DNA of 64,000 bases from Phycisphaerales bacterium (GCA_035627955.1 DASPKU010000021.1:1-64000); one strand, 5' to 3'; shown: positions 6,837-47,082, counted from the first letter of the stretch. The notes: generated from the letters alone by a model not told the origin. Translations and numbers: made by a program.

Positions 6837-7316
6837 TCACGCCCCCGGCGGCACCCCGATGTCCTCGTCCCACAGCTCCGCGTGCTCGCGGATGAACTGC
6901 TCCATCAGCGACACGCACCGCGCATCATCGGCCACGACCAGCTCCACGCCCTCCGCCCGCATCCAGTCCTCCCGCCCCTGGAACGTGCGGTTTTCCCCGA
7001 TCACCACCCGCCGGATCCGGTGCAGCACGGCCGTGCCGCTGCACATCGCGCACGGCGAGAGCGTCGAGGCCAGCGTCAGCGTGTGCCAGTCGCGCCGCCG
7101 CCCCGCGTTGCGGATGCACACCGTCTCGGCGTGGGCGGTCGAGTCCCCTGTCTGCACCCGCAGGTTGTGCCCCAGCGCCACGATCACGCCCTCGGCGGTC
7201 ATCAGCGCCGACCCGATGGGGATCCCACCCTCGGCTCGGCTCTTGAGGGCCTGCTGGTACGCGGCGTCGAGCGCCAGCCGATCCAGTGTCCGCCGATCAA
7301 GTGTGCCCTGGTCCAT
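6837..7316 (-). CDS. Cytosine deaminase, yeast Fcy1-like (CDA fold)
   Basis: The protein has 159 residues. The zinc site of the cytidine-deaminase fold is complete: HAE at 62-64 (zinc His and catalytic Glu) and SPCAMC at 88-92 (two zinc Cys). GHNLRVQ (49-55), GENRTFQGREDWMRAEGVE (107-125) and the C-terminal ELWDEDIG (147-154) match the small fungal cytosine deaminase rather than the large bacterial CodA amidohydrolase. The expected reaction is cytosine to uracil plus ammonia. The divergent neighbour is uracil phosphoribosyltransferase, which would turn the product into UMP, so the pair forms a cytosine salvage route. A longer upstream reading overlaps that gene and is rejected. Confidence 0.88.
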   Translation of the reverse strand: MDQGTLDRRTLDRLALDAAYQQALKSRAEGGIPIGSALMTAEGVIVALGHNLRVQTGDSTAHAETVCIRNAGRRRDWHTLTLASTLSPCAMCSGTAVLHRIRRVVIGENRTFQGREDWMRAEGVELVVADDARCVSLMEQFIREHAELWDEDIGVPPGA

Positions 7317-7371
7317 GCCGCGAGTGTACCTCGCCCGCTGCCCGCGCCCGCCCTCCTGTAAACTGGACAGC

Positions 7372-8019
7372 ATGGGCACGCCCTCCCCCGAGTTCCCAGG
7401 CGTCATCGTCTTCGACCACCCTCTCATCCAGCACAAGCTGACGTACCTGCGCGACCGCACCGTCAGCCACCGCCCCTTCCGCGCCCTGCTCTACCAGATC
7501 GCCGGGCTCATGGTCTTCGAGGTCACGCGCACGCTCCCCACCGAGGTTATCGAGGTCGAGACGCCCATCGAGCGCACGCAGGGCCGCCGCCTCGCCGGCC
7601 ACGTCACCGTCGTTCCGGTGCTGCGCTCAGGGCTGGGCATGGCCGAGGGCATCCTCGAGATGATGCCCGAGGCCCGTGTCGGGCACCTCGGCCTGGTGCG
7701 CGACGAGGAGACCCTCAAACCCCGCGTCTACCTCCAGCGCCTCCCGCGCGACCTCTCCGCCGGCCCGGTGTTCCTGGTCGATCCCATGCTCGCCACCGGC
7801 GGCTCCGCGGCCGAGGCCGTGGCCATCCTGCGGCGCGCGGGCGCGAAAGACCTCCGCCTCATCTGCCTGGTCGCGGCGCCCGAGGGCATCCGCCGCATCC
7901 GTACCATGGACGCAGAGATTCCGATTTATACCGCGGCCATCGACCGCCAGCTCAATGAGCGGGGCTACATCCTTCCTGGACTGGGTGACGCGGGCGATCG
8001 CATGTACGGCACGGGCTGA
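7372..8019 (+). CDS. upp: Uracil phosphoribosyltransferase
   Basis: The protein has 215 residues, slightly longer than typical UPRTase (about 208). It catalyses uracil plus PRPP to UMP in pyrimidine salvage. The PRPP-binding loop VDPMLATGGSA is at about residues 134-144, and the C-terminal GLGDAGDRMYGTG matches the uracil-binding end of the family. PVLRSGLGM is also conserved. The ATG at 7372 is the first suitable start after the divergent deaminase start, leaving 55 bp that must hold both promoters. The gene continues the cytosine-uracil-UMP pathway suggested by its neighbour. Confidence 0.95.
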   Translation: MGTPSPEFPGVIVFDHPLIQHKLTYLRDRTVSHRPFRALLYQIAGLMVFEVTRTLPTEVIEVETPIERTQGRRLAGHVTVVPVLRSGLGMAEGILEMMPEARVGHLGLVRDEETLKPRVYLQRLPRDLSAGPVFLVDPMLATGGSAAEAVAILRRAGAKDLRLICLVAAPEGIRRIRTMDAEIPIYTAAIDRQLNERGYILPGLGDAGDRMYGTG

Positions 8020-14642: not shown

Positions 14643-15131
14643 TCAGGCCGCCCGCTCGTGCCACCGCGCGGGCCGCACGTTGCTCGGGGCGTTGGGGGTC
14701 TCCCGCCAGTCCTCGGCCGTGCGGAGCGTGAGCTCCATCGGCATCGTCTTGCGGTAGCCCAGCAGGCGGATCACCTCCAGCACATCGGTCCACGTGGGGA
14801 AGGCCTTGTCGTTGCTCTTCTTGAAGGCCTCGATCGCCATGAGGAACAGGAACTGCTCCTTGGTCAGCTCCCCTTCCTCGGCCGAGCGGGTGAAGTCGCT
14901 GAGCCGCCGCCCAGCCCCGCGCCGGCGCTCCAGGCCCGTGGATGCGCCCTCCACGTTCAGTGAGCGGCGGTCCACCGGCCACACCCGCCGGTCGATGATC
15001 GTGCCCTCGGGCGGGCCGGGGGGACGCTGGCCGGAGTTGGACGTGGATGGCAAAGGAGCCAGGGGCGCCGTCGGCGCACCTGGCTCCTGAGTGGTCTGCT
15101 TGGCGGAAGGCGTGGGGTTCTTATCGGGCAT
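14643..15131 (-). CDS. Hypothetical protein with disordered N-terminus
   Basis: The protein has 162 residues. Residues 1-90 are Pro/Thr/Arg-rich and probably disordered. The C-terminal part (LTKEQFLFLMAIEAFKKSND, then FPTWTDVLEVIRLLGYRKT) forms a compact helical block resembling winged-helix modules. I do not recognise a family. The gene lies between two other small minus-strand genes, and no operon partner suggests a role. Confidence 0.6.
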   Translation of the reverse strand: MPDKNPTPSAKQTTQEPGAPTAPLAPLPSTSNSGQRPPGPPEGTIIDRRVWPVDRRSLNVEGASTGLERRRGAGRRLSDFTRSAEEGELTKEQFLFLMAIEAFKKSNDKAFPTWTDVLEVIRLLGYRKTMPMELTLRTAEDWRETPNAPSNVRPARWHERAA

Positions 15132-15181
15132 GGGCGGGGTCCCTTCTCGGAGCCGCCGCGCGTGCCGATCACCACGGCGGG

Positions 15182-15448
15182 CTACAGGTCGTCGTCGTCC
15201 TCTTCGTCGTCCTCGCCCTCTTCATCGTCACCCTCGGGGTCCTCCTCCAGCCCTTCCTCGTCGTCCTCGAGGAAGTCCTCGTCCTCTTCCTCGAACTCCT
15301 CACCGTCCTCAAACTCGTCCTCGTCGCCAAAGTCGTCATCGTCGTCCATGTCATCCTCGTCATCGACGCCCATCAGGGGCGCGACAGCGGGATCCAGCGG
15401 CGACAGCCACTCCTCTTTCGTCTCCACCTCAAGCACTGCGATCGACAT
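15182..15448 (-). CDS. Very acidic low-complexity protein
   Basis: The protein has 88 residues. After a normal N-terminus (MSIAVLEVETKEEWLSPLDP) the last 60 residues are almost all Asp and Glu, with scattered Phe and Gly. Such acidic tails occur in nucleic-acid mimics and in histone- or ribosome-associated proteins, but none can be assigned. The product is probably disordered. ATG 15448 gives the only sensible start; the longer reading to 15769 runs over the divergent promoter region. Confidence 0.6.
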   Translation of the reverse strand: MSIAVLEVETKEEWLSPLDPAVAPLMGVDDEDDMDDDDDFGDEDEFEDGEEFEEEDEDFLEDDEEGLEEDPEGDDEEGEDDEEDDDDL

Positions 15449-15753
15449 GTTCCACCTTCCGTTGATTGGTCCACACGCCGCGTGAGCAGACCACACCCAC
15501 GCGTTTGTTCCACCGTGCGCCCGCGACATTCGGGGCCCCTGCCCCCGCGGTTCCGGTCCCGCGGGACCCATTATTCCCGGGTCCCGCACCACTGTCCCGC
15601 GCCGGCAGGAGTCAACCCCCCTGCCCGAATGCGGCGGTACAGTACAATCCACCCCGCCCAAGTCAATCGGGGGGCATCCCCGGCCCGCACGCCGGTTCCA
15701 TCCACCAAGTACCACCACGGCGCAACCCCGCTCCCCGCCCGCACCAACTCCCG

Positions 15754-16395
15754 ATGAAGACCGATTCAACCAACGAGCCCAGGTTCCCCGCCCTCCTCGC
15801 GGCGGTCCTCCTCCCGGGCCTGGGCCACGTCGTCGCCGGCGAACGTCTCCGCGGGCTGTTCGTCGCGGTCGGCATCCTCGGCCTTTTCTTCGGCGGCATG
15901 CTCGTCGGGGGCATCGACACCATCGACCGCAAGGACAACGGCGTCTGGTTCATCGGGCAGGCCCTGGTCGGCCCCCTCGCCTTCGGCGTGGACTACCTCC
16001 ACCAGGAAAAGTTCAAGGCCTACGACCCGTCGATCATGGGGGCGGCCACCCTCGCGCAGGTCAAGAACGCCCGCAAGCGCTCCGGGTATCCGGATGAGCA
16101 GATGCAGGACGCCGAGGTCTCCACCAACCAGGGGCGCTTCAAGGTGAAGGTGTGGGGAAAGGCGCCCCCCGGCGGCGGCCCGCCCAACGCCACCAGCGTC
16201 GGCAAGGTCAACGAGCTCGGAACGCTGTTCTCGACCATCGCGGGCATGCTCAACCTCATCGCGATCATCGATGCGGGCTTCCCGGGGCGGCCCAGGAAGC
16301 AGCGGAAGGAAGGGGAGCCGGGCCCGGCAGACAAGGGCGTGGACAAGGTGCTGACCGGCGCTGACGTCGCCTCGACGGTCGGGGGTGGCCAGTGA
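15754..16395 (+). CDS. Membrane protein of unknown function (DUF6677-like)
   Basis: The protein has 213 residues. The N-terminal half has membrane segments (FPALLAAVLLPGLGHVVAGE, then LFVAVGILGLFFGGMLVGGI). The PGLGHxxxGxxxRGL pattern resembles small bacterial membrane families such as DUF6677, a tentative match from memory. The C-terminus is Lys/Gly/Pro-rich and probably cytoplasmic. The next gene overlaps by 4 bp (GTGA), so the two are translationally coupled and may work together. Confidence 0.65.
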   Translation: MKTDSTNEPRFPALLAAVLLPGLGHVVAGERLRGLFVAVGILGLFFGGMLVGGIDTIDRKDNGVWFIGQALVGPLAFGVDYLHQEKFKAYDPSIMGAATLAQVKNARKRSGYPDEQMQDAEVSTNQGRFKVKVWGKAPPGGGPPNATSVGKVNELGTLFSTIAGMLNLIAIIDAGFPGRPRKQRKEGEPGPADKGVDKVLTGADVASTVGGGQ

Positions 16396-16634
16396 CGCTG
16401 CTCGCCTACACCCCGTTCATCGACCCCGTCAACATCAACCAGTACTGGTACCTGCTGCTGCTGCCCGTGTCGCTGCTGGTCTCGCTGTCGTACAAGGCCT
16501 GCCGCGTGGAGTCGCTGAGCGACCTCCCGCGCGAGGTGGGCGTGATGACGGTGCAGATCGTGGTGGTGATGATCCTCCTGGGGGTGGCGAGCTTCCTGTT
16601 CGTGGAGAAGGTGCTGCCGATGATCGCGGCGTAG
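16392..16634 (+). CDS. Small two-helix membrane protein
   Basis: The protein has 80 residues with two hydrophobic helices (YWYLLLLPVSLLVSLSY and VGVMTVQIVVVMILLGVASF) separated by a short charged loop. The GTG start at 16392 overlaps the upstream stop by 4 bp. Function is unknown, but coupling with the upstream membrane protein suggests a two-component membrane complex. Confidence 0.7.
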   Translation: MTLLAYTPFIDPVNINQYWYLLLLPVSLLVSLSYKACRVESLSDLPREVGVMTVQIVVVMILLGVASFLFVEKVLPMIAA

Positions 16635-20645: not shown

Positions 20646-22313
20646 TCAGCCATCGGCGTAGTTCCCCCGCTGGGTCTTGCTCGGCCGGTCCAGGGCCTGC
20701 ACGAGGTAACGAAGGGCGTCCACCGCATGGTCGTGCCCATCCTTCACGGGGTTGGGGTCCTCGGGCCGCTTGGGGTCGAAGTGGTACTTCTCCAGGCACT
20801 CAATGAGCGTCGTGCACCGCTTGTGCACGAACAGGCGCGGCCTCTCGCCGGTCGCGGGTGCGAGTCGGGCCCGCACCAGGTTCAGCCCCTCGTTCACCAT
20901 CGCGCGGCTGATGCGGGTGGTGTAGCCGTGCTGGTGCAGGATCGGGATCGGCGCGTTCCCGGTCTCCTGATTCTGCTGGAATCCCGCGGGGTCGGGGGCA
21001 ATGAACGCGGGCGGCGGCCACGCGGGGATGCCTTCGCGGGCCAGCCCTTGGGAGATCGCGCGGATGTGCTCGCCGAGGATGACCTTCGCCTGCACGCGCT
21101 CGTCCATCACCCAGATGCTGCCGTCGTGGGCGATGGCCGCGTAGACGATGGCGGTGGGGGCGGTGAAGCCGAAGTCCATCCCGACCGCCCATTCGCGGGT
21201 GAGGTGTGGCGCGGGGCCCGCGTGGTCGAACACGTGCAGGTGCGGGTCGAACTCGGGGAGCACCGCGTGCGTGCGGCGCGGGCGGAGGCAGAGCATTTCG
21301 GACTCCCACACCACCAGCGGCACGCGCCGCTTCTGGGCGATGGCGTCGTCGACGGTGACGTGGCCGGGGGTGCGAGCGGGGTCCTTGGCGCGGGATTGGC
21401 ACTCGGGGAGGAGGGGGCACGTGCCACCGAGATGACCCGTCCTCGGGTCTTCTCGGTGGTCGGGGGTCGCACCGCACCGAGATGAAGACATCTCGGTGGC
21501 ACGGCACACGTGCTCCTCCCCGCACCTCGCCAGCACATCCACCACCCCCCACCGAAACAGCGACCGCTTCCCCTCGCGGGCCTCCTGCACCAGGCGGTGC
21601 ATGACGCCGTGCGGGATGTGCATGGTTGAGAGGCACTCGACACTGCCGCGGACGAGGTGGTCGCCGCACTGCTTGCTGCGCGTGGTGAGCTGCGCCGCGT
21701 CCCATACCTCGGGGTCAAAGAGGTCGACCTCGTCGCAGCGGAGCTTCTGCACGCGCGTGCCGCGGACGCTTGTCTGGGACTGCGCCAGCAGCTCTACGCT
21801 CGAGCCGTTCTTGAGGGCGAGCCGGCGCTCGGTGATCTTGCCGTCGACCTCGGCCGCGAGGGCTTCGCTGGTGCGCGGGTCGAAGAGGCGGCGGAGATGG
21901 GCGTGCATGCGCTTGGACTGCTCCAGGGAGCCCGCGAGGATGCGGACCTCGATGGTGGGGCGGAAGAGGAGGTCGAGCAGCGTGGCGACGGCGCCCAGGA
22001 AGGTCTTGCCGCCGCCGCGGTTGGCCCAGACGACGCAGTCTGTGGGTACCCCGCCGCTCCGCGGCGGTACTGTCGCTGTGCTTTGTAGGTCCTGCGCCCC
22101 AGCGATACTCGGAAGAGCCGCCGCGGAGCGTCGGGGTACCCAGAGACCGGGGCCGAAGAACGCGAAGCACAGGTAGTCGAAGGGCGCGGAGCTGCCCTCG
22201 AGCACCGGCGCCCGCGGGATTGTGAGCTTCAAGGCGTCCTTGAGCCATGCGTGCAGCTCATCGGGGGTGGTGGGTTCGGGTGGCAGCGGACGCGCGGCGT
22301 CTTCGGAAGGCAT
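20646..22313 (-). CDS. Large-terminase-like ATPase/nuclease
   Basis: The protein has 555 residues. Walker A is ANRGGGKT (about residues 98-105) and Walker B is LRCDEVDLF (about 188-196). RNase H-fold nuclease positions follow: GMDFGF (about 378) and DHAVDALRYL (about 524). This matches phage large terminase subunits that cut and package DNA. ATG 22313 is chosen because GGAG lies 7 nt upstream; ATG 22340 is an alternative. Two palindromic repeats lie in frame. One (22044-22141) sits between the N-terminus and Walker A. The other (21421-21502) sits between two Cys of a CxxxxC-type motif. No portal, capsid or tail genes are near. It is the last gene of the HTH-ATPase-GNAT operon. Confidence 0.85.
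   Translation of the reverse strand: MPSEDAARPLPPEPTTPDELHAWLKDALKLTIPRAPVLEGSSAPFDYLCFAFFGPGLWVPRRSAAALPSIAGAQDLQSTATVPPRSGGVPTDCVVWANRGGGKTFLGAVATLLDLLFRPTIEVRILAGSLEQSKRMHAHLRRLFDPRTSEALAAEVDGKITERRLALKNGSSVELLAQSQTSVRGTRVQKLRCDEVDLFDPEVWDAAQLTTRSKQCGDHLVRGSVECLSTMHIPHGVMHRLVQEAREGKRSLFRWGVVDVLARCGEEHVCRATEMSSSRCGATPDHREDPRTGHLGGTCPLLPECQSRAKDPARTPGHVTVDDAIAQKRRVPLVVWESEMLCLRPRRTHAVLPEFDPHLHVFDHAGPAPHLTREWAVGMDFGFTAPTAIVYAAIAHDGSIWVMDERVQAKVILGEHIRAISQGLAREGIPAWPPPAFIAPDPAGFQQNQETGNAPIPILHQHGYTTRISRAMVNEGLNLVRARLAPATGERPRLFVHKRCTTLIECLEKYHFDPKRPEDPNPVKDGHDHAVDALRYLVQALDRPSKTQRGNYADG
21421..21502. repeat. Palindromic repeat inside the terminase gene (CCACCGAGATG family)
   Basis: Perfect 14-bp terminal arms, GTGCCACCGAGATG (21421-21434) and its complement (21489-21502), enclose a compound of two hairpins. 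The reading frame stays open, adding about 28 residues (starting near RATEMSSSRCG) between two Cys residues. Other copies of the core CCACCGAGATG-n-CATCTCGGTGG lie at 30684-30709, 41507-41532 and 62277-62302. Confidence 0.85.
22044..22141. repeat. Palindromic repeat inside the terminase gene (GGGTACCCCGCCG family, copy 1)
   Basis: Inverted 24-bp arms (22044-22067 and 22118-22141), starting GGGTACCCCGCCGC, pair with one mismatch. The 50 bp between them are unrelated to those of the second copy at 23315-23424. The frame stays open and the insert contributes about 32 residues, ending PPRSGGVP, just before Walker A of the terminase. Confidence 0.88.
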
Positions 22314-22353
22314 TGGCGTGCTCCGGGAGTATGGGTTCATGTGGTGTCGCAAG

Positions 22354-22457
22354 GTGGCACGACCGGGCTCTGACGGTCGTGGGATGGGGCTTCAGGAGGG
22401 CAGGGGAGTCTCGTGATCAACGGACGAGCCACGACCGTCAGAGCACGGTCGTGCCAC
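22354..22457. repeat. Fold-back repeat at the GNAT-terminase junction
   Basis: Inverted 29-bp arms (22354-22382 and 22429-22457), starting GTGGCACGACCG, pair with one mismatch. The right arm encodes the C-terminal tail of the GNAT protein, whose stop codon (22392) lies between the arms. The left arm lies just upstream of the terminase start. The native gene end has probably been replaced by the element. Confidence 0.8.
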
Positions 22458-23195
22458 GGGGCACGGTCGCGGCACGTTGTGCACGTACACCAGCGGCCTG
22501 GCCGTGAGCGACGAGCCCGCGAGCGCGGCGAACTCGGCGAGTCCATCAAGGTCTGTCATGTCGAGCGGGAGGTGGCGGCGCGTGCTCTTGCTGTCGTTGG
22601 CCCACCGCAAGATGGCGGCGCGGAGCGTGTCGGAGGCGACGAGCGCCGAGCGGGCGCGGGTGAGGTCCACCAGCTCCCACGCGTTCAACGCGAGGGTGCG
22701 GAGCGTGAGGGCCAGGCGTGTGTCGCGGCGCGAGGTGGGCGGCGCCAGCTCTTCCATGCCGGCGCGGGTGAAGAACGGGCAGGCGCGCCCCATCGCGGCC
22801 ACGGCCTCGGTGTGCGTGGTGAGCGGGTTGCTCAGGTAGTGCTCGACGAGGCGGCGGGCGATGCCCAGCGCGCGGTAGCGCGGGTCGATGATCACGCGGG
22901 CAATGGTGCGGATGTGGCGGTTGATGGTGGTGGCGGTGGTGCGGGCGGTCCACGTGACCGTGGTGGGACTACCGAGAGGAGGACACTTAGGCGGCACGGT
23001 GAAGAGGTGTGGCCAGGCGGTGCGGCGCCAGGGGGCGTTGAGCGTGGGCATGATGACGACGAGGACGCCCGCGAGCGTGGTGCCCTCGCGAGCGGCGAGG
23101 GTGAGGACAGGTGTGGCCGGGCGCGGGGCGCGGTAGTGGTAGCGGGCGAGGGCCTGGTAGTCGGCCCGCGTGCCCTCCGTGATGGTGATGTTCAT
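22392..23195 (-). CDS. GNAT acetyltransferase, COG2401-like half
   Basis: The protein has 267 residues. Motif A of GNAT enzymes is visible as VIIDPRYRALGIARRLVEHY (about residues 103-122), and MGRACPFFTRAGM follows about 30 residues later. That pair of motifs resembles the acetyltransferase half of COG2401 proteins, in which an ABC-type ATPase and a GNAT domain are fused. Here the ATPase half is the preceding gene, overlapping by 4 bp (ATGA). The substrate is unknown. The last 25 residues come from a fold-back repeat, so the native C-terminus is probably lost. The upstream reading to 23984 is rejected as it lies in the ATPase gene. Confidence 0.78.
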   Translation of the reverse strand: MNITITEGTRADYQALARYHYRAPRPATPVLTLAAREGTTLAGVLVVIMPTLNAPWRRTAWPHLFTVPPKCPPLGSPTTVTWTARTTATTINRHIRTIARVIIDPRYRALGIARRLVEHYLSNPLTTHTEAVAAMGRACPFFTRAGMEELAPPTSRRDTRLALTLRTLALNAWELVDLTRARSALVASDTLRAAILRWANDSKSTRRHLPLDMTDLDGLAEFAALAGSSLTARPLVYVHNVPRPCPVARPCSDGRGSSVDHETPLPS

Positions 23196-23977
23196 GGCTG
23201 GCCTCCGGTGGGCATGCGGAGCGTGGCGGTGCCGGCGTGCACGTCGATGATGTGCGTGGCCGAGAGCCACGCGGCGACGTCGTCGTGCGCGGTGGCGAGG
23301 AGCAGGAGCGCTTTGGGTACCCCGCCGCTCCGCGGCGGCACTTCTGCCTTTCGCTTTGGTGTTGCAAATGCCGGAAGGACTTCCTGAGTCGAACGAAGAC
23401 CGCCGCGGAGCGGCGGGGTACCCACCGCGCCCATGAGCCGCCGCAGGGCGTAGCACAGGCAGCGTGCGGTGGCACGGTCGAGCACGCTGGCGAACTCGTC
23501 GATGATGAGCGTAACGGGTGCGTGGTGCTGCTGGACGCTGGCGAGGGCCTGCGCGAGCCGCAGCCGGAAGCGCTCGCCCTCGGAAAGCTGGTACGCACTG
23601 CGGGAGAGCATGGTCGCGTCCGCGAGGCCCGCGTGGGCGAGTGTGCGCAGGGCACCGTCGAGCGGCAGGTCGATGAGGTCGATGAGGGCTGTTTCCGGGT
23701 GGGGTGGGGTGCTGTCGCCGGTGATGACGTTGTGCCCGTTGGAGCGAGAAAGGCGGGCAAGCTCGCCCAGCAGCGTGGACTTTCCGCTGCCGCTCGGTCC
23801 CTGGATGAGCACGATGTCGCCGGGCCGGAAGCGGGCGTGCAGCTCGCGGGCAATCGCGGTGAACGTGGGCCGCAGGTCGCTGGCGGTGGGGCGGACAGCA
23901 AGCCCGAACGTGGCGCACGCCCTCAGCAGCCGCTCGGTGGGGCGAGTGGTGATGTCGATGGTGCGGATCAGGCTCAT
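23192..23977 (-). CDS. ABC-type ATPase, COG2401-like half
   Basis: The protein has 261 residues. Walker A is GPSGSGKST (about 60-68), the ABC signature region is LSEGERFRLRLAQAL (about 129-143), Walker B is VTLIIDEF (about 154-161) and an H-loop His appears in ATAHDD (about 230). There are no membrane segments, so it is a soluble ABC ATPase rather than a transporter subunit. Start and stop each overlap a neighbour by 4 bp (ATGA), which means tight coupling with the HTH gene before and the GNAT gene after. A palindromic repeat adds about 37 residues in frame between Walker B and the H-loop. Confidence 0.8.
   Translation of the reverse strand: MSLIRTIDITTRPTERLLRACATFGLAVRPTASDLRPTFTAIARELHARFRPGDIVLIQGPSGSGKSTLLGELARLSRSNGHNVITGDSTPPHPETALIDLIDLPLDGALRTLAHAGLADATMLSRSAYQLSEGERFRLRLAQALASVQQHHAPVTLIIDEFASVLDRATARCLCYALRRLMGAVGTPPLRGGLRSTQEVLPAFATPKRKAEVPPRSGGVPKALLLLATAHDDVAAWLSATHIIDVHAGTATLRMPTGGQP
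23315..23424. repeat. Palindromic repeat inside the ABC ATPase gene (GGGTACCCCGCCG family, copy 2)
   Basis: The 24-bp arms (23315-23338 and 23401-23424) are perfect inverted repeats. On the coding strand they read GTPPLRGG at the entry and PPRSGGVP at the exit. The frame is kept. The left arm is identical to that of the copy in the terminase gene, while the core between the arms differs. Confidence 0.9.
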
Positions 23978-24498
23978 GCCGCACCTCCCATCGCGGGACG
24001 AGACTCGGGGATAACTTCGAGCGGCGCTGGCTCGGGTGTGTGGAGCAGCGTGGTGGGCTGCGGCTGCGAGCGCATCAGCTCCAGCACCGCCGCGTGGTGC
24101 TGGCGGGCGGTGTGGAAGGAGACGCGGGCGAGGCGCGCGGCCTCGCGGATCGACAGGCCGTGCAGGAAGCACGCCGTTGCCACCTTGGCGCGCGTGCGGC
24201 CCCACTTCCGCCGGTGCGCGCTGACGAACGCGAACTCGGGCGAGAGCACGCGCAGGGTCAGCAGCCGCACGCGGTATGACACGGCCCGCGCCTTCACGCT
24301 GGGGTTGAGGCGGGCGATCTCCGCGGCCGAGCGCCCGTCCGCGTACACGGCCCTGAGGAGGGCCCGGTCGGCGTGCGGGAGGACTTCAGCGCCCTTGAGG
24401 ATCAGGGCCTGGGACCCACGCCCGGAGCGGCGGCGGTCGAGGTTGCGGGCGGAGAAGTGGTCGGTAAAGGCCTGCGGTTCAAGGGCTTGCTCGTCCAT
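23974..24498 (-). CDS. HTH protein, sigma-region-4-like
   Basis: The protein has 174 residues. Two helix-turn-helix-like stretches are visible: LRAVYADGRSAAEIARLNPS (about residues 45-65) and HGLSIREAARLARVSFHTAR (about 113-132). The second resembles sigma-70 region 4 or a LuxR-type HTH. The C-terminal 30 residues are Pro-rich. It is the first gene of the operon with the ABC ATPase, GNAT and terminase genes and overlaps the ATPase start by 4 bp. It probably recognises DNA, either as regulator or as the site-recognition part of the module; small terminase subunits also carry HTH domains. Confidence 0.68.
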   Translation of the reverse strand: MDEQALEPQAFTDHFSARNLDRRRSGRGSQALILKGAEVLPHADRALLRAVYADGRSAAEIARLNPSVKARAVSYRVRLLTLRVLSPEFAFVSAHRRKWGRTRAKVATACFLHGLSIREAARLARVSFHTARQHHAAVLELMRSQPQPTTLLHTPEPAPLEVIPESRPAMGGAA

Positions 24499-24539
24499 TG
24501 GGAGTCCCCCTGCGGTGCGGAACGGGTGCGTGCGGTCGT

Positions 24540-24557
24540 GTTCACAACCTTGTGAAC
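24540..24557. promoter_or_regulatory. Candidate operator of the terminase operon
   Basis: GTTCACAACCTTGTGAAC is a perfect palindrome with 8-bp arms and a 2-bp centre. It lies 42 bp upstream of the HTH gene start, where it would overlap a promoter. The divergent S24 repressor is the obvious candidate ligand. Confidence 0.6.
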
Positions 24558-24615
24558 AGCGGCTACAGTTTCACCAGCTCTTGAACGAGTTGCAAGGGGT
24601 CTGTAAGGTATGTCA

Positions 24616-24657
24616 ACGATTTTGCGCACAAACGTCGCCGATGGGTGCGCAAGTCGT
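24616..24657. promoter_or_regulatory. Second inverted repeat in the divergent control region
   Basis: ACGATTTTGCGCAC (24616-24629) and GTGCGCAAGTCGT (24645-24657) form an imperfect inverted repeat around a 15-bp spacer. It lies between the operator-like palindrome and the long fold-back element, in the 338-bp gap that separates the operon from the repressor gene. Confidence 0.4.
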
Positions 24658-24676
24658 TGGCGGGCCTTGATCAGAA

Positions 24677-24824
24677 AAACCAAACACGGAGGCACGGAGA
24701 GCACGGAGGGGAAAGCTGGGGGAGCTTGGATCGAGAAGCCGGCGATGAGGGACTTCGAACTTGAACGATCAATCTTCCTCTCGCGTGTTCCCCTCCGTGC
24801 TCTCCGTGCCTCCGTGTTTGGTTT
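24677..24824. repeat. Fold-back repeat with perfect 36-bp arms (CGGAGG family, copy 2)
   Basis: Arms 24677-24712 and 24789-24824 are exact inverted repeats built from CACGGAGG/CACGGAGA units, separated by 76 bp. The element ends 12 bp before the repressor start, so it supplies part of that gene's leader. The 29-bp-arm element at 13686-13839 is of the same type. Confidence 0.92.
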
Positions 24825-24836
24825 GGAGGGACTTCA

Positions 24837-25688
24837 ATGACGCAGCAACAGGTAGGCGCAGTGATCAGGCAGCGGCGGCAGGAGCTCGGCCTTTCGCTCC
24901 AGCGCGTCGCCGACGGTGCGGGCTGCGCGAAGAGTCTGCTCTCGGCCGTCGAGAACGGGGACCGCAACCCGCCCGGTGATGAGATCCTCCGCCGCATCGA
25001 ATCGGTGCTCGCGCTTCCACCGGGCCAGCTCGTCGCCGCCGCGGCGTGGCAGCGCGGGCTGGATGCCGGCGGCGCGCCGGTGCGCGAGGGTGTGGCGAAA
25101 CTGCAGGACCAGCAGCGCGTGGCCCAGCGCCTGGCCGAGCTGCTGAAAACCAAGGGGGAAAAGAGCGGCTCCATCGACACGCTCTACCGCAGCGGTGAGC
25201 TGCGCCGGCTGGTTGACCAGCTCTCGGGCGGGCGCGAGAGCGCCGCGGCATCGGGCGGGGTCGTCCCCATCGCGCTCCCGCGCGAGGTGCCGCTCATCAA
25301 CAAGGTCGCGGCCGGCTACCCGAAGGAGTTCACCGACCTGGGATACCCCGCGCGCGTGGCGGACGAGTACGTGCGCTGCCCGGACCTGGATGACCCCGAC
25401 GCGTTCGCGTGCCGCGTGGTGGGTGACTCGATGCAGCCGGTGTACACCGAGGGGGACATCGTGGTGTTCAGCCCGACAAAGACGGTGAAGAGCGGCATGG
25501 ACTGCTTCGCGCGCCTCGAGCCCGACCACGAGTCGACGTTCAAGCGCGTGTACCTGGAGCACGGCAAGGACGGCGAGGAGCTGATCCGCCTTCAGCCGCT
25601 TAACAGCGCCTACCCGCCGAGAGTCGTCGGGCGCGAACAGGTCGCCGGGCTCTACGCGGCCGTCAGCGTCATGCGCAAAATTGTCTGA
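24837..25688 (+). CDS. XRE-S24 transcriptional repressor (LexA/cI-like autoprotease)
   Basis: The protein has 283 residues. An XRE-type HTH spans about residues 5-60 (GLSLQRVADGAGCAKSLLSA). The C-terminal S24 domain has a catalytic Ser198 in VVGDSMQP, a candidate general-base Lys236 in STFKRVYL and an Ala159-Gly160 bond in KVAAGYP that fits the self-cleavage site of LexA and phage repressors. It would therefore be inactivated by self-cleavage on DNA damage. It diverges from the HTH-ATPase-GNAT-terminase operon across a region holding an operator-like palindrome, so it is the likely regulator of that operon. Confidence 0.88.
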   Translation: MTQQQVGAVIRQRRQELGLSLQRVADGAGCAKSLLSAVENGDRNPPGDEILRRIESVLALPPGQLVAAAAWQRGLDAGGAPVREGVAKLQDQQRVAQRLAELLKTKGEKSGSIDTLYRSGELRRLVDQLSGGRESAAASGGVVPIALPREVPLINKVAAGYPKEFTDLGYPARVADEYVRCPDLDDPDAFACRVVGDSMQPVYTEGDIVVFSPTKTVKSGMDCFARLEPDHESTFKRVYLEHGKDGEELIRLQPLNSAYPPRVVGREQVAGLYAAVSVMRKIV

Positions 25689-46135: not shown

Positions 46136-46215
46136 GCGTGGTGGGTGTGGTGAAGGCGGCGCGGCTGTGCCGGCTCGAGCAGCTGGCGTTTTTGGCCGTC
46201 TGCTATGATTGGGGC

Positions 46216-46455
46216 GTGCAGTACACGCTCCAACAGCTCCGTGATCAGCTCGAGGTTCTGATCGCCCGGTCCAAGGCGGGCGAGGAGATTGTGATCACGT
46301 GCGAGGGTAAGGTCGAGGTGCGGCTTGTTCCTTCGGGCATGGCGAGCTCTGAGAGCGGACAGCGGCCGCCGCCTGGGTTGATGAAGAGCAAAACGAAGTA
46401 CATCGCGCCGGACTTCGATGCCCCGATCGACGACTTTAAGGAATACCTGGAGTGA
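46216..46455 (+). CDS. Phd/YefM-type antitoxin, first of two tandem copies
   Basis: The protein has 79 residues from a GTG. YTLQQLRDQLEVLIARSKAG is a Phd/YefM-like N-terminus, and the tail DFDAPIDDFKEYLE is the acidic toxin-binding end. The next gene is a close paralogue 4 bp downstream, followed by a PIN toxin. The upstream reading to 46132 extends into the sucD 3' region and is rejected. Confidence 0.75.
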   Translation: MQYTLQQLRDQLEVLIARSKAGEEIVITCEGKVEVRLVPSGMASSESGQRPPPGLMKSKTKYIAPDFDAPIDDFKEYLE

Positions 46456-46459
46456 GTAC

Positions 46460-46699
46460 GTGGTCCGGTACACGCTCCAACAGCTTCACGATCAGCTCGA
46501 GCTCGTGATCGCTCGATCGCAAGCTGGCGAAGAGGTTGTGATCACCGCCGATGGACGTCCTGTGGCGCGGATCATCCCAGTTTGCGCATCTGCACAGACC
46601 GTTGGAAAGCGTCCGCCGGCGGGATGGGGGAGGGGGCGGATCCACCTCAACTCCGACTTTGATGCTCCACTTCAGGAGTTCGGGGAGTACTCAGGTTGA
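46460..46699 (+). CDS. Phd/YefM-type antitoxin, second tandem copy
   Basis: The protein has 79 residues from GTG 46460. It is similar to the preceding gene over its length (YTLQQL.DQLE..IARS.AGEE, then DFDAP...F.EY). The stop overlaps the TTG start of the PIN toxin by 4 bp (TTGA), so this copy is the coupled partner of the toxin. Having two antitoxin genes for one toxin is unusual. Confidence 0.75.
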   Translation: MVRYTLQQLHDQLELVIARSQAGEEVVITADGRPVARIIPVCASAQTVGKRPPAGWGRGRIHLNSDFDAPLQEFGEYSG

Positions 46700-47082
46700 A
46701 GGTCCTGCTCGATACCCATGCATTCGTCTGGCACGTCGCCGGGGCGCCCGAGGAATCGAAGGCATGCCGTGAGGTGCTGCTGTCCAATGACAATCAGGTA
46801 CTCGTCAGCATTGCGTGCTGCTGGGAGATGGCAATCAAGCTCAGCACTCAGAAGCTGGATTTCGAGGGCCCCATCGAGAGGTACGTTCGAGAGGCGCTCG
46901 CCCTATATGGGTTCCAGTTGCTTGGGATTGAGCTGGCGCACCTCTCGGCGGTCGAATCGATGCCCTTCCACCATCGTGACCCCTTCGACCGCATGCTGGT
47001 CGCGCAGGCGCTCGTAGAGAGCGTGCCGATCGTGAGCAGGGATCCGCAGTTGGATGCGTACGGCGTTCAGCGCATCTGGTGA
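46696..47082 (+). CDS. PIN-domain toxin (VapC-like)
   Basis: The protein has 128 residues. The PIN acidic residues are visible as Asp6 (LLDTHAFVWH), Glu44 (CCWEMAIK) and Asp95/Asp98 (HHRDPFDRMLVAQAL). PIN toxins cut RNA, often tRNA or rRNA. It uses a TTG start that overlaps the upstream antitoxin stop by 4 bp. Its last 16 bp overlap the convergent PH-like gene. Confidence 0.85.
   Translation: MKVLLDTHAFVWHVAGAPEESKACREVLLSNDNQVLVSIACCWEMAIKLSTQKLDFEGPIERYVREALALYGFQLLGIELAHLSAVESMPFHHRDPFDRMLVAQALVESVPIVSRDPQLDAYGVQRIW

Follow-up and report, generated by a model that had tools for sequence, protein, structure and literature searches.

Terminases are regarded as motors that need a portal and a capsid in order to work. 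An earlier note on a 64,000-nucleotide stretch of DNA from a Phycisphaerales bacterium (hereafter the window) described a terminase gene, TerL, in an operon facing a LexA-like repressor gene and claimed that virion genes were absent from the entire stretch. We asked what this locus is and what a terminase could do there. The draft genome assembly comprises 23 contigs with a total of 4.26 Mb, at 95.7% completeness.

Gene calls and profiles confirmed all five genes of the locus, four of them on the minus strand opposite the XRE-S24 gene (Table 1), and the 4-bp overlaps between the HTH and ABC genes (23974..23977) and between the ABC and GNAT genes (23192..23195) proved real. In a PHROG profile search, TerL matched phrog_2 (E 1e-19); it also matched Terminase_6C with a score under the curated cut-off, and the PF03354 profile failed to detect it. 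The ABC protein matched Pfam AAA_16/ABC_tran and phrog_293 (E 2e-17), the GNAT protein matched phrog_886 (E 3e-12) and Acetyltransf_10, and the S24 protein matched Peptidase_S24 (E 1e-17) and phrog_4 (E 4e-28). Although phrog_886 is labelled "ABC transporter ATP-binding subunit", the window protein has the fold of a GNAT acyltransferase. The model of the HTH protein gave no significant structure match as a whole protein; its single units matched, as sigma region 4-like. An NCBIfam search returned nothing specific. The Ser/Lys dyad and Ala-Gly site of the S24 protein, which the earlier note had pointed out, are present in the window and kept in nearly all orthologues; one more S24 protein is encoded elsewhere in the genome. 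ParB and TerS-like genes are absent at the window locus. By gene calls, with some of the genes profile-scanned, the rest of the 64 kb reads as ordinary chromosome.

Table 1. Features of the module, its control region, its host flank and its palindromic repeats (positions counted from the first nucleotide of the window)
Feature	Position	Strand	Remarks
TerL	20646..22352	-	TTG start at 22352, or alternative ATG at 22313; ATPase and RNase H-like nuclease with Cys cluster between
GNAT-fold acyltransferase, phrog_886 kind	22392..23195	-	C-terminal tail derived from repeat insertion
ABC-superfamily ATPase, phrog_293 kind, without membrane domain	23192..23977	-	GNAT-fused in some relatives
Small HTH protein	23974..24498	-	Sigma region 4-like, with two helix-turn-helix units; heads the operon
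XRE-S24 repressor, LexA/CI-like	24837..25688	+	Ala-Gly site, Ser/Lys pair
Candidate operator GTTCACAACCTTGTGAAC	24540..24557		Perfect palindrome save two central bases; sole genome copy at ≤2 mismatches
Second operator-like site GTTCAAGAGCTGGTGAAA	24569..24586	-	29 bp from the first
Host-gene flank c6, c7 (DUF6677 membrane protein), c5	14643..16634		About 4 kb from TerL here; adjoins TerL elsewhere
REPIN-like palindromic repeat, arms GGTACCCCGCCGCTCCGCGG	22044..22141		In frame in TerL, just before Walker A
REPIN-like repeat, same family as the GGTACCCCGCCGCTCCGCGG repeat of TerL	23315..23423		Lies in frame within ABC, ahead of the H-loop
Second palindrome family, arm CATCTCGGTGGCACG	21420..21503		In-frame insert of TerL, within the loop of the Cys cluster
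Third palindrome family GTGGCACGACCGTGCTCTGACGGTCGTGG	22354..22457		GNAT end and GNAT-TerL gap
Fourth palindrome	24677..24824		S24-HTH intergenic region; 37-nt perfect arms, 74 apart

The distribution of the module was examined by profile searches. TerL was detected in 115 of 150 relatives and, within the family, in 85 of the 90 genomes sampled; among the rows listed, the five without TerL were all draft genomes. In a phylum-wide profile sample, TerL was present in each of the 10 genomes listed for other Phycisphaerae orders (E < 1e-140), and genomes outside Phycisphaerae gave weak matches or none. TerL is essentially single-copy, one profile match per genome being the rule, and most f2 genomes are without the module. 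We then compared 39 profile-scanned loci, one each from 39 Phycisphaerae genomes. The five-gene set, whose recurrence the earlier note had proposed as a check, recurs as one block in portal-free surroundings: HTH, ABC, GNAT and TerL are all present at 35 loci, S24 at 27 (missing at 12), and no portal profile matched within 10 kb of the module at any Phycisphaerae locus. A ParB-like gene occurs at 12 of the 39 loci and a small TerS-like gene at 10, in the almost constant order S24> <HTH <ABC <GNAT (<ParB) (<TerS-like) <TerL. The TerS-like gene (c55), which had no PHROG match, is so called because of its place before TerL, as also in the viral contig L329. TerL is kept without ABC and GNAT genes within 10 kb in genome G035 and in some f9 genomes. 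In G035 (L071), S24, HTH and TerL are retained, ABC and GNAT are gone, and the capsid gene of a prophage is found some 10 kb off; at three loci of family f9 (L205, L206 and L212), TerL stands by itself, the rest of the module being absent within 10 kb, and at L205 TerL and a dnaA-like gene point away from each other.

In an alignment of 18 TerL sequences, Walker A (R112-GGGKT), Walker B (RCDE, 205-208), the coupling ST motif and the acidic nuclease residues D393, D454, D541 and D545 were all invariant. The dN/dS values of the module genes in close genome pairs were 0.08-0.37, and those of TerL and S24 were similar to those of flanking host genes. These results strongly support the view that the motor and nuclease motifs of TerL are intact and that the module is under purifying selection. 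The missing adjacent portal is a matter of context and leaves the membership of the window protein in the TerL family unaffected.

Next, we considered the descent of the module. Every multi-member family formed one clade in the TerL tree, with strong support for f1, f4, f5, f6 and f9 and moderate support for f8, and the GNAT tree agreed with taxonomy as judged by the minimum number of changes. The c6-c7-c5 host flank lies beside the block at 14 loci in families f1, f4 and f5, and in G424 a gene annotated from its sequence as housekeeping rpiB stands between TerL and the rest of the block. The earlier note had conceded that its reading would fall if the locus were the end of an ordinary prophage; this is excluded by the vertical trees, the common host flank, the portal-free loci and the gene read as rpiB inside the block in G424. 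Virion genes beside the terminase, the hallmark of a prophage, were missing at the module loci. Together, the recurrent block, single-copy TerL, family clades, common flank, low dN/dS and invariant motifs indicate that the module is a cellular operon of long standing, passed on by vertical descent, and neither a prophage end nor a satellite.

The operon also appears to have a control site of its own. Both candidate operator sites lie immediately upstream of the HTH gene. GTTCA-N8-TGAAC was found at ≤1 mismatch in 12 of 27 S24-HTH intergenic regions, where 0.085 were expected, and the excess was seen at spacing 8 and at no other spacing. This strongly supports the motif as a conserved, dedicated operator candidate of the S24 gene. 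The architecture of the S24 family, taken by itself, would predict that the operon is induced by damage. The proposal that a DNA-handling module was domesticated and is controlled by a LexA-like repressor is strongly supported by recurrence, vertical inheritance, purifying selection, the module's own operator and the absence of virion genes.

To trace the origin of the module, we turned to its phage relatives. Among 80 viral contigs with an ABC homologue, GNAT accompanies ABC in 78, and 50 carry ParB-ABC-GNAT-HTH-TerL-portal. The packaging region of SSU5/nickie-like large phages contains ParB, ABC (phrog_293), GNAT (phrog_886), HTH (phrog_867), TerL and portal; the module genes lie together in SSU5 and nickie, with the portal directly after them in nickie. 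The ABC, GNAT, ParB and TerL homologues form one block as in the chromosome, and the alignments of ABC and GNAT span most of each protein. In contrast, the chromosomal block is without portal or capsid, begins with the sigma-4-like double HTH gene and has the S24 repressor. The TerLs differ as well: a Cys cluster between motor and nuclease (C277, C283, C312 and C318 in the window TerL; C-x4/5-C-x2-C-x5-C in the compact form of the class) is absent from the TerLs of SSU5/nickie-like phages. Two viral contigs, IMGVR_UViG_3300047201_000053 (L092) and IMGVR_UViG_3300008470_001711 (L093), encode a TerL of the same subfamily with the same C-x4/5-C-x2-C-x5-C cluster (identity of the L092 TerL to class members, 37-40%), and, unlike the chromosomal module, have a phrog_12 portal directly after TerL. 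Since the Cys cluster is common to both and absent from SSU5-like phages, TerL seems to derive from this viral branch. A further entry of the viral collection, L172/L331 (IMGVR_UViG_3300034175_000195), has chromosomal-type GNAT and TerL (49% identity); it may be a genuine virus or a piece of planctomycete DNA that was wrongly labelled. We found no report of the module in the literature on Phycisphaerae terminases and terminase domestication.

The most probable explanation of the locus as a whole, in our judgement, is that an ancestor of the Phycisphaerae captured a phage packaging module, which became a chromosomal operon. The capture itself, with portal and capsid absent or later lost, and the ensuing vertical inheritance under a LexA/CI-like repressor are strongly supported. 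On this evidence, the packaging motor of a virus appears to have been recruited to work for the cell. The captured set would have comprised HTH, ABC ATPase, GNAT, ParB, TerS-like and TerL genes, the portal and capsid genes having never been taken or having been lost later. S24 would be bound upstream of the HTH gene, at GTTCA-N8-TGAAC, until damage or infection set off its self-cleavage, and the HTH protein would activate the operon. ABC and GNAT, as a pair, would bind DNA and acylate a base or a partner protein, thereby licensing the site, and TerL, powered by ATP hydrolysis, would cleave and translocate the DNA. We infer this course, from S24 cleavage through HTH activation and the acylation licence to TerL cutting or moving cellular DNA, from the parts of the module. 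Since the module is without a portal of its own, its target would be DNA in the cell, which makes DNA processing on induction, or interference with the DNA of invading phages, the likeliest role, an assignment that we make tentatively. Our best guess is thus an inducible machine that marks, cuts and translocates DNA in the cell. The terminase could then be a stress-switched motor and nuclease owned by the cell, licensed by ABC-GNAT and acting on cellular or invading DNA in a capsid-free manner; that it represents a new cellular DNA translocation system is quite conceivable, if short of probable. Terminases are among the strongest biological DNA motors, and a terminase operon that is kept across a class in single copy, under selection and free of virion genes, would mean either use of such a motor away from capsids or a hidden gene-transfer agent in Planctomycetota.

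The ABC-GNAT pair invites a different emphasis. The two proteins occupy one open frame in eight relatives (L068, L069, L070, L073, L075, L077, L220 and L221), and because the frame is shared in several genomes, the suggestion that they are split halves of a COG2401-like protein, an ABC ATPase fused to an acetyltransferase, is supported as regards domain make-up; in the window, the two are separate genes that overlap by 4 bp. For phages, a GNAT that is linked to an ABC ATPase and predicted to acylate bases has been reported (PMC7824862). Base modification could accordingly be the main role, with the ABC-GNAT pair acylating a base and TerL being a mere coupled nuclease. The GNAT structure was predicted confidently (pLDDT 85), and Foldseek placed TmcA best and Mom among the best matches, which fits such a role. 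However, many other GNATs tie with them, among them many that act on proteins and small molecules, so the fold search assigns the superfamily and not the substrate; moreover, TerL is retained where ABC and GNAT are gone. We consider base modification as the main role unlikely. No tested function of the ABC-GNAT pair was found in the literature; the pair is widespread in large phages and becomes approachable here in a cellular setting.

Other explanations turn on where capsids might come from. Within the 64-kb window, the portal HMM found no match, and none of the 10 unplaced proteins matched a virion PHROG, in agreement with the claim that portal and other virion genes are missing there. In the genome as a whole, the portal profiles phrog_12 and PF04860 and the capsid profile phrog_5 were without match; one phrog_145 portal match (L240) was insignificant, had genes for membrane proteins and ABC transporters around it, and was set aside. 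Because PHROG capsid profiles detect local prophages weakly, and could miss a divergent capsid cluster, we built our own profile from the protease-capsid fusion of these prophages. It was positive in 65 of 150 relatives, often in several copies and with up to 9 matches per genome, and found none in the genome of the window. Loci L238, L239, L241 and L242 belong to a widespread Phycisphaerae family of siphovirus-like prophages with this fusion, poorly caught by phrog_5. Weak capsid or portal matches in G002, G006, G115 and G424 proved to be siphovirus-like prophages; in G115, profiles confirmed a tape measure and a protease-capsid gene as well as a terminase and a portal, the latter two being the prophage's own. 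Prophages were commoner in genomes with the module (58 of 115) than in those without it (7 of 35; p 0.002), a difference confounded by phylogeny, and with that reservation a defence that excludes prophages is not favoured.

The abundance of such prophages in related genomes bears on the idea that the cell terminase loads onto procapsids of infecting or induced phages and packs unsuitable DNA into them, so that phage yield falls and transduction occurs, much like a satellite at a fixed chromosomal locus. The module does resemble a complete pre-portal packaging set. However, the genome of the window has no detectable prophage of the siphovirus-like family, and PADLOC returned generic ABC and HTH matches and no defence system for the module; we regard packaging interference of this kind as improbable. 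A split gene-transfer agent, with the operon as packaging half and unrecognised capsid and tail genes elsewhere in the chromosome, would fit the intact TerL motifs, the TerS-like gene of relatives, the vertical inheritance and the tight repression. Like RcGTA, the module consists of packaging genes of phage origin that the cell retains and passes on vertically; unlike such agents, it is accompanied by no capsid, portal or tail genes that we could find (portal and capsid by profile). A portal, capsid and tail of its own would be expected of such an agent, but the portal and capsid profiles phrog_12, phrog_145, PF04860, phrog_5 and the protease-capsid profile, of limited sensitivity, gave no significant match in the genome. 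Portals were also missing from most module-bearing genomes tested for them, and the prophage loci examined hold a terminase of another family than the module TerL, which makes a split gene-transfer agent doubtful, a shade more so than packaging interference.

Satellites typically combine S24 control with packaging genes and no capsid, as seen here, and the earlier note had thought of a satellite borrowing a helper's capsids, but such elements are mobile with variable insertion sites, and the module's single copy per genome, its fixed site beside the same host flank across families and in many genomes, its taxonomy-following trees and the lack of any integrase seen on reading the flanks make a mobile satellite or phage-inducible island very improbable.

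The remaining alternative, a decaying prophage remnant whose frames are open by chance, would take the palindromic repeats inside TerL and ABC of this genome as signs of decay, along with the missing ParB and TerS-like genes. These repeats, however, are inserted in frame at loops that are variable in relatives, and dN/dS of 0.08-0.37, invariant motifs, class-wide single-copy retention and taxonomy-following trees contradict decay at the level of the class, so that we give this explanation hardly any weight. The raw open frames of TerL and ABC in the window are longer than the conserved proteins because a palindromic repeat has been inserted in each. The REP-like arms have 52 exact and 84 approximate matches in the genome and form REPIN-like pairs; the approximate arms are mostly intergenic, with some inside other predicted genes. 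Nine matches to Y1_Tnp (RAYT-type) transposases were found in the genome, and this transposase family usually accompanies REP repeats. REPIN-like inserts kept in frame in genes for conserved proteins are reminiscent of the Rickettsia palindromic elements. The arm CATCTCGGTGGCACG has about ten matches across the window. Elsewhere in the window, the protein encoded at 6892-8019 strongly matched phrog_38585 (E 1e-71), a phage family of unknown function, and two small adjoining genes at 46138-47082 resemble, as read from the sequence, an antitoxin and a PIN-type toxin.
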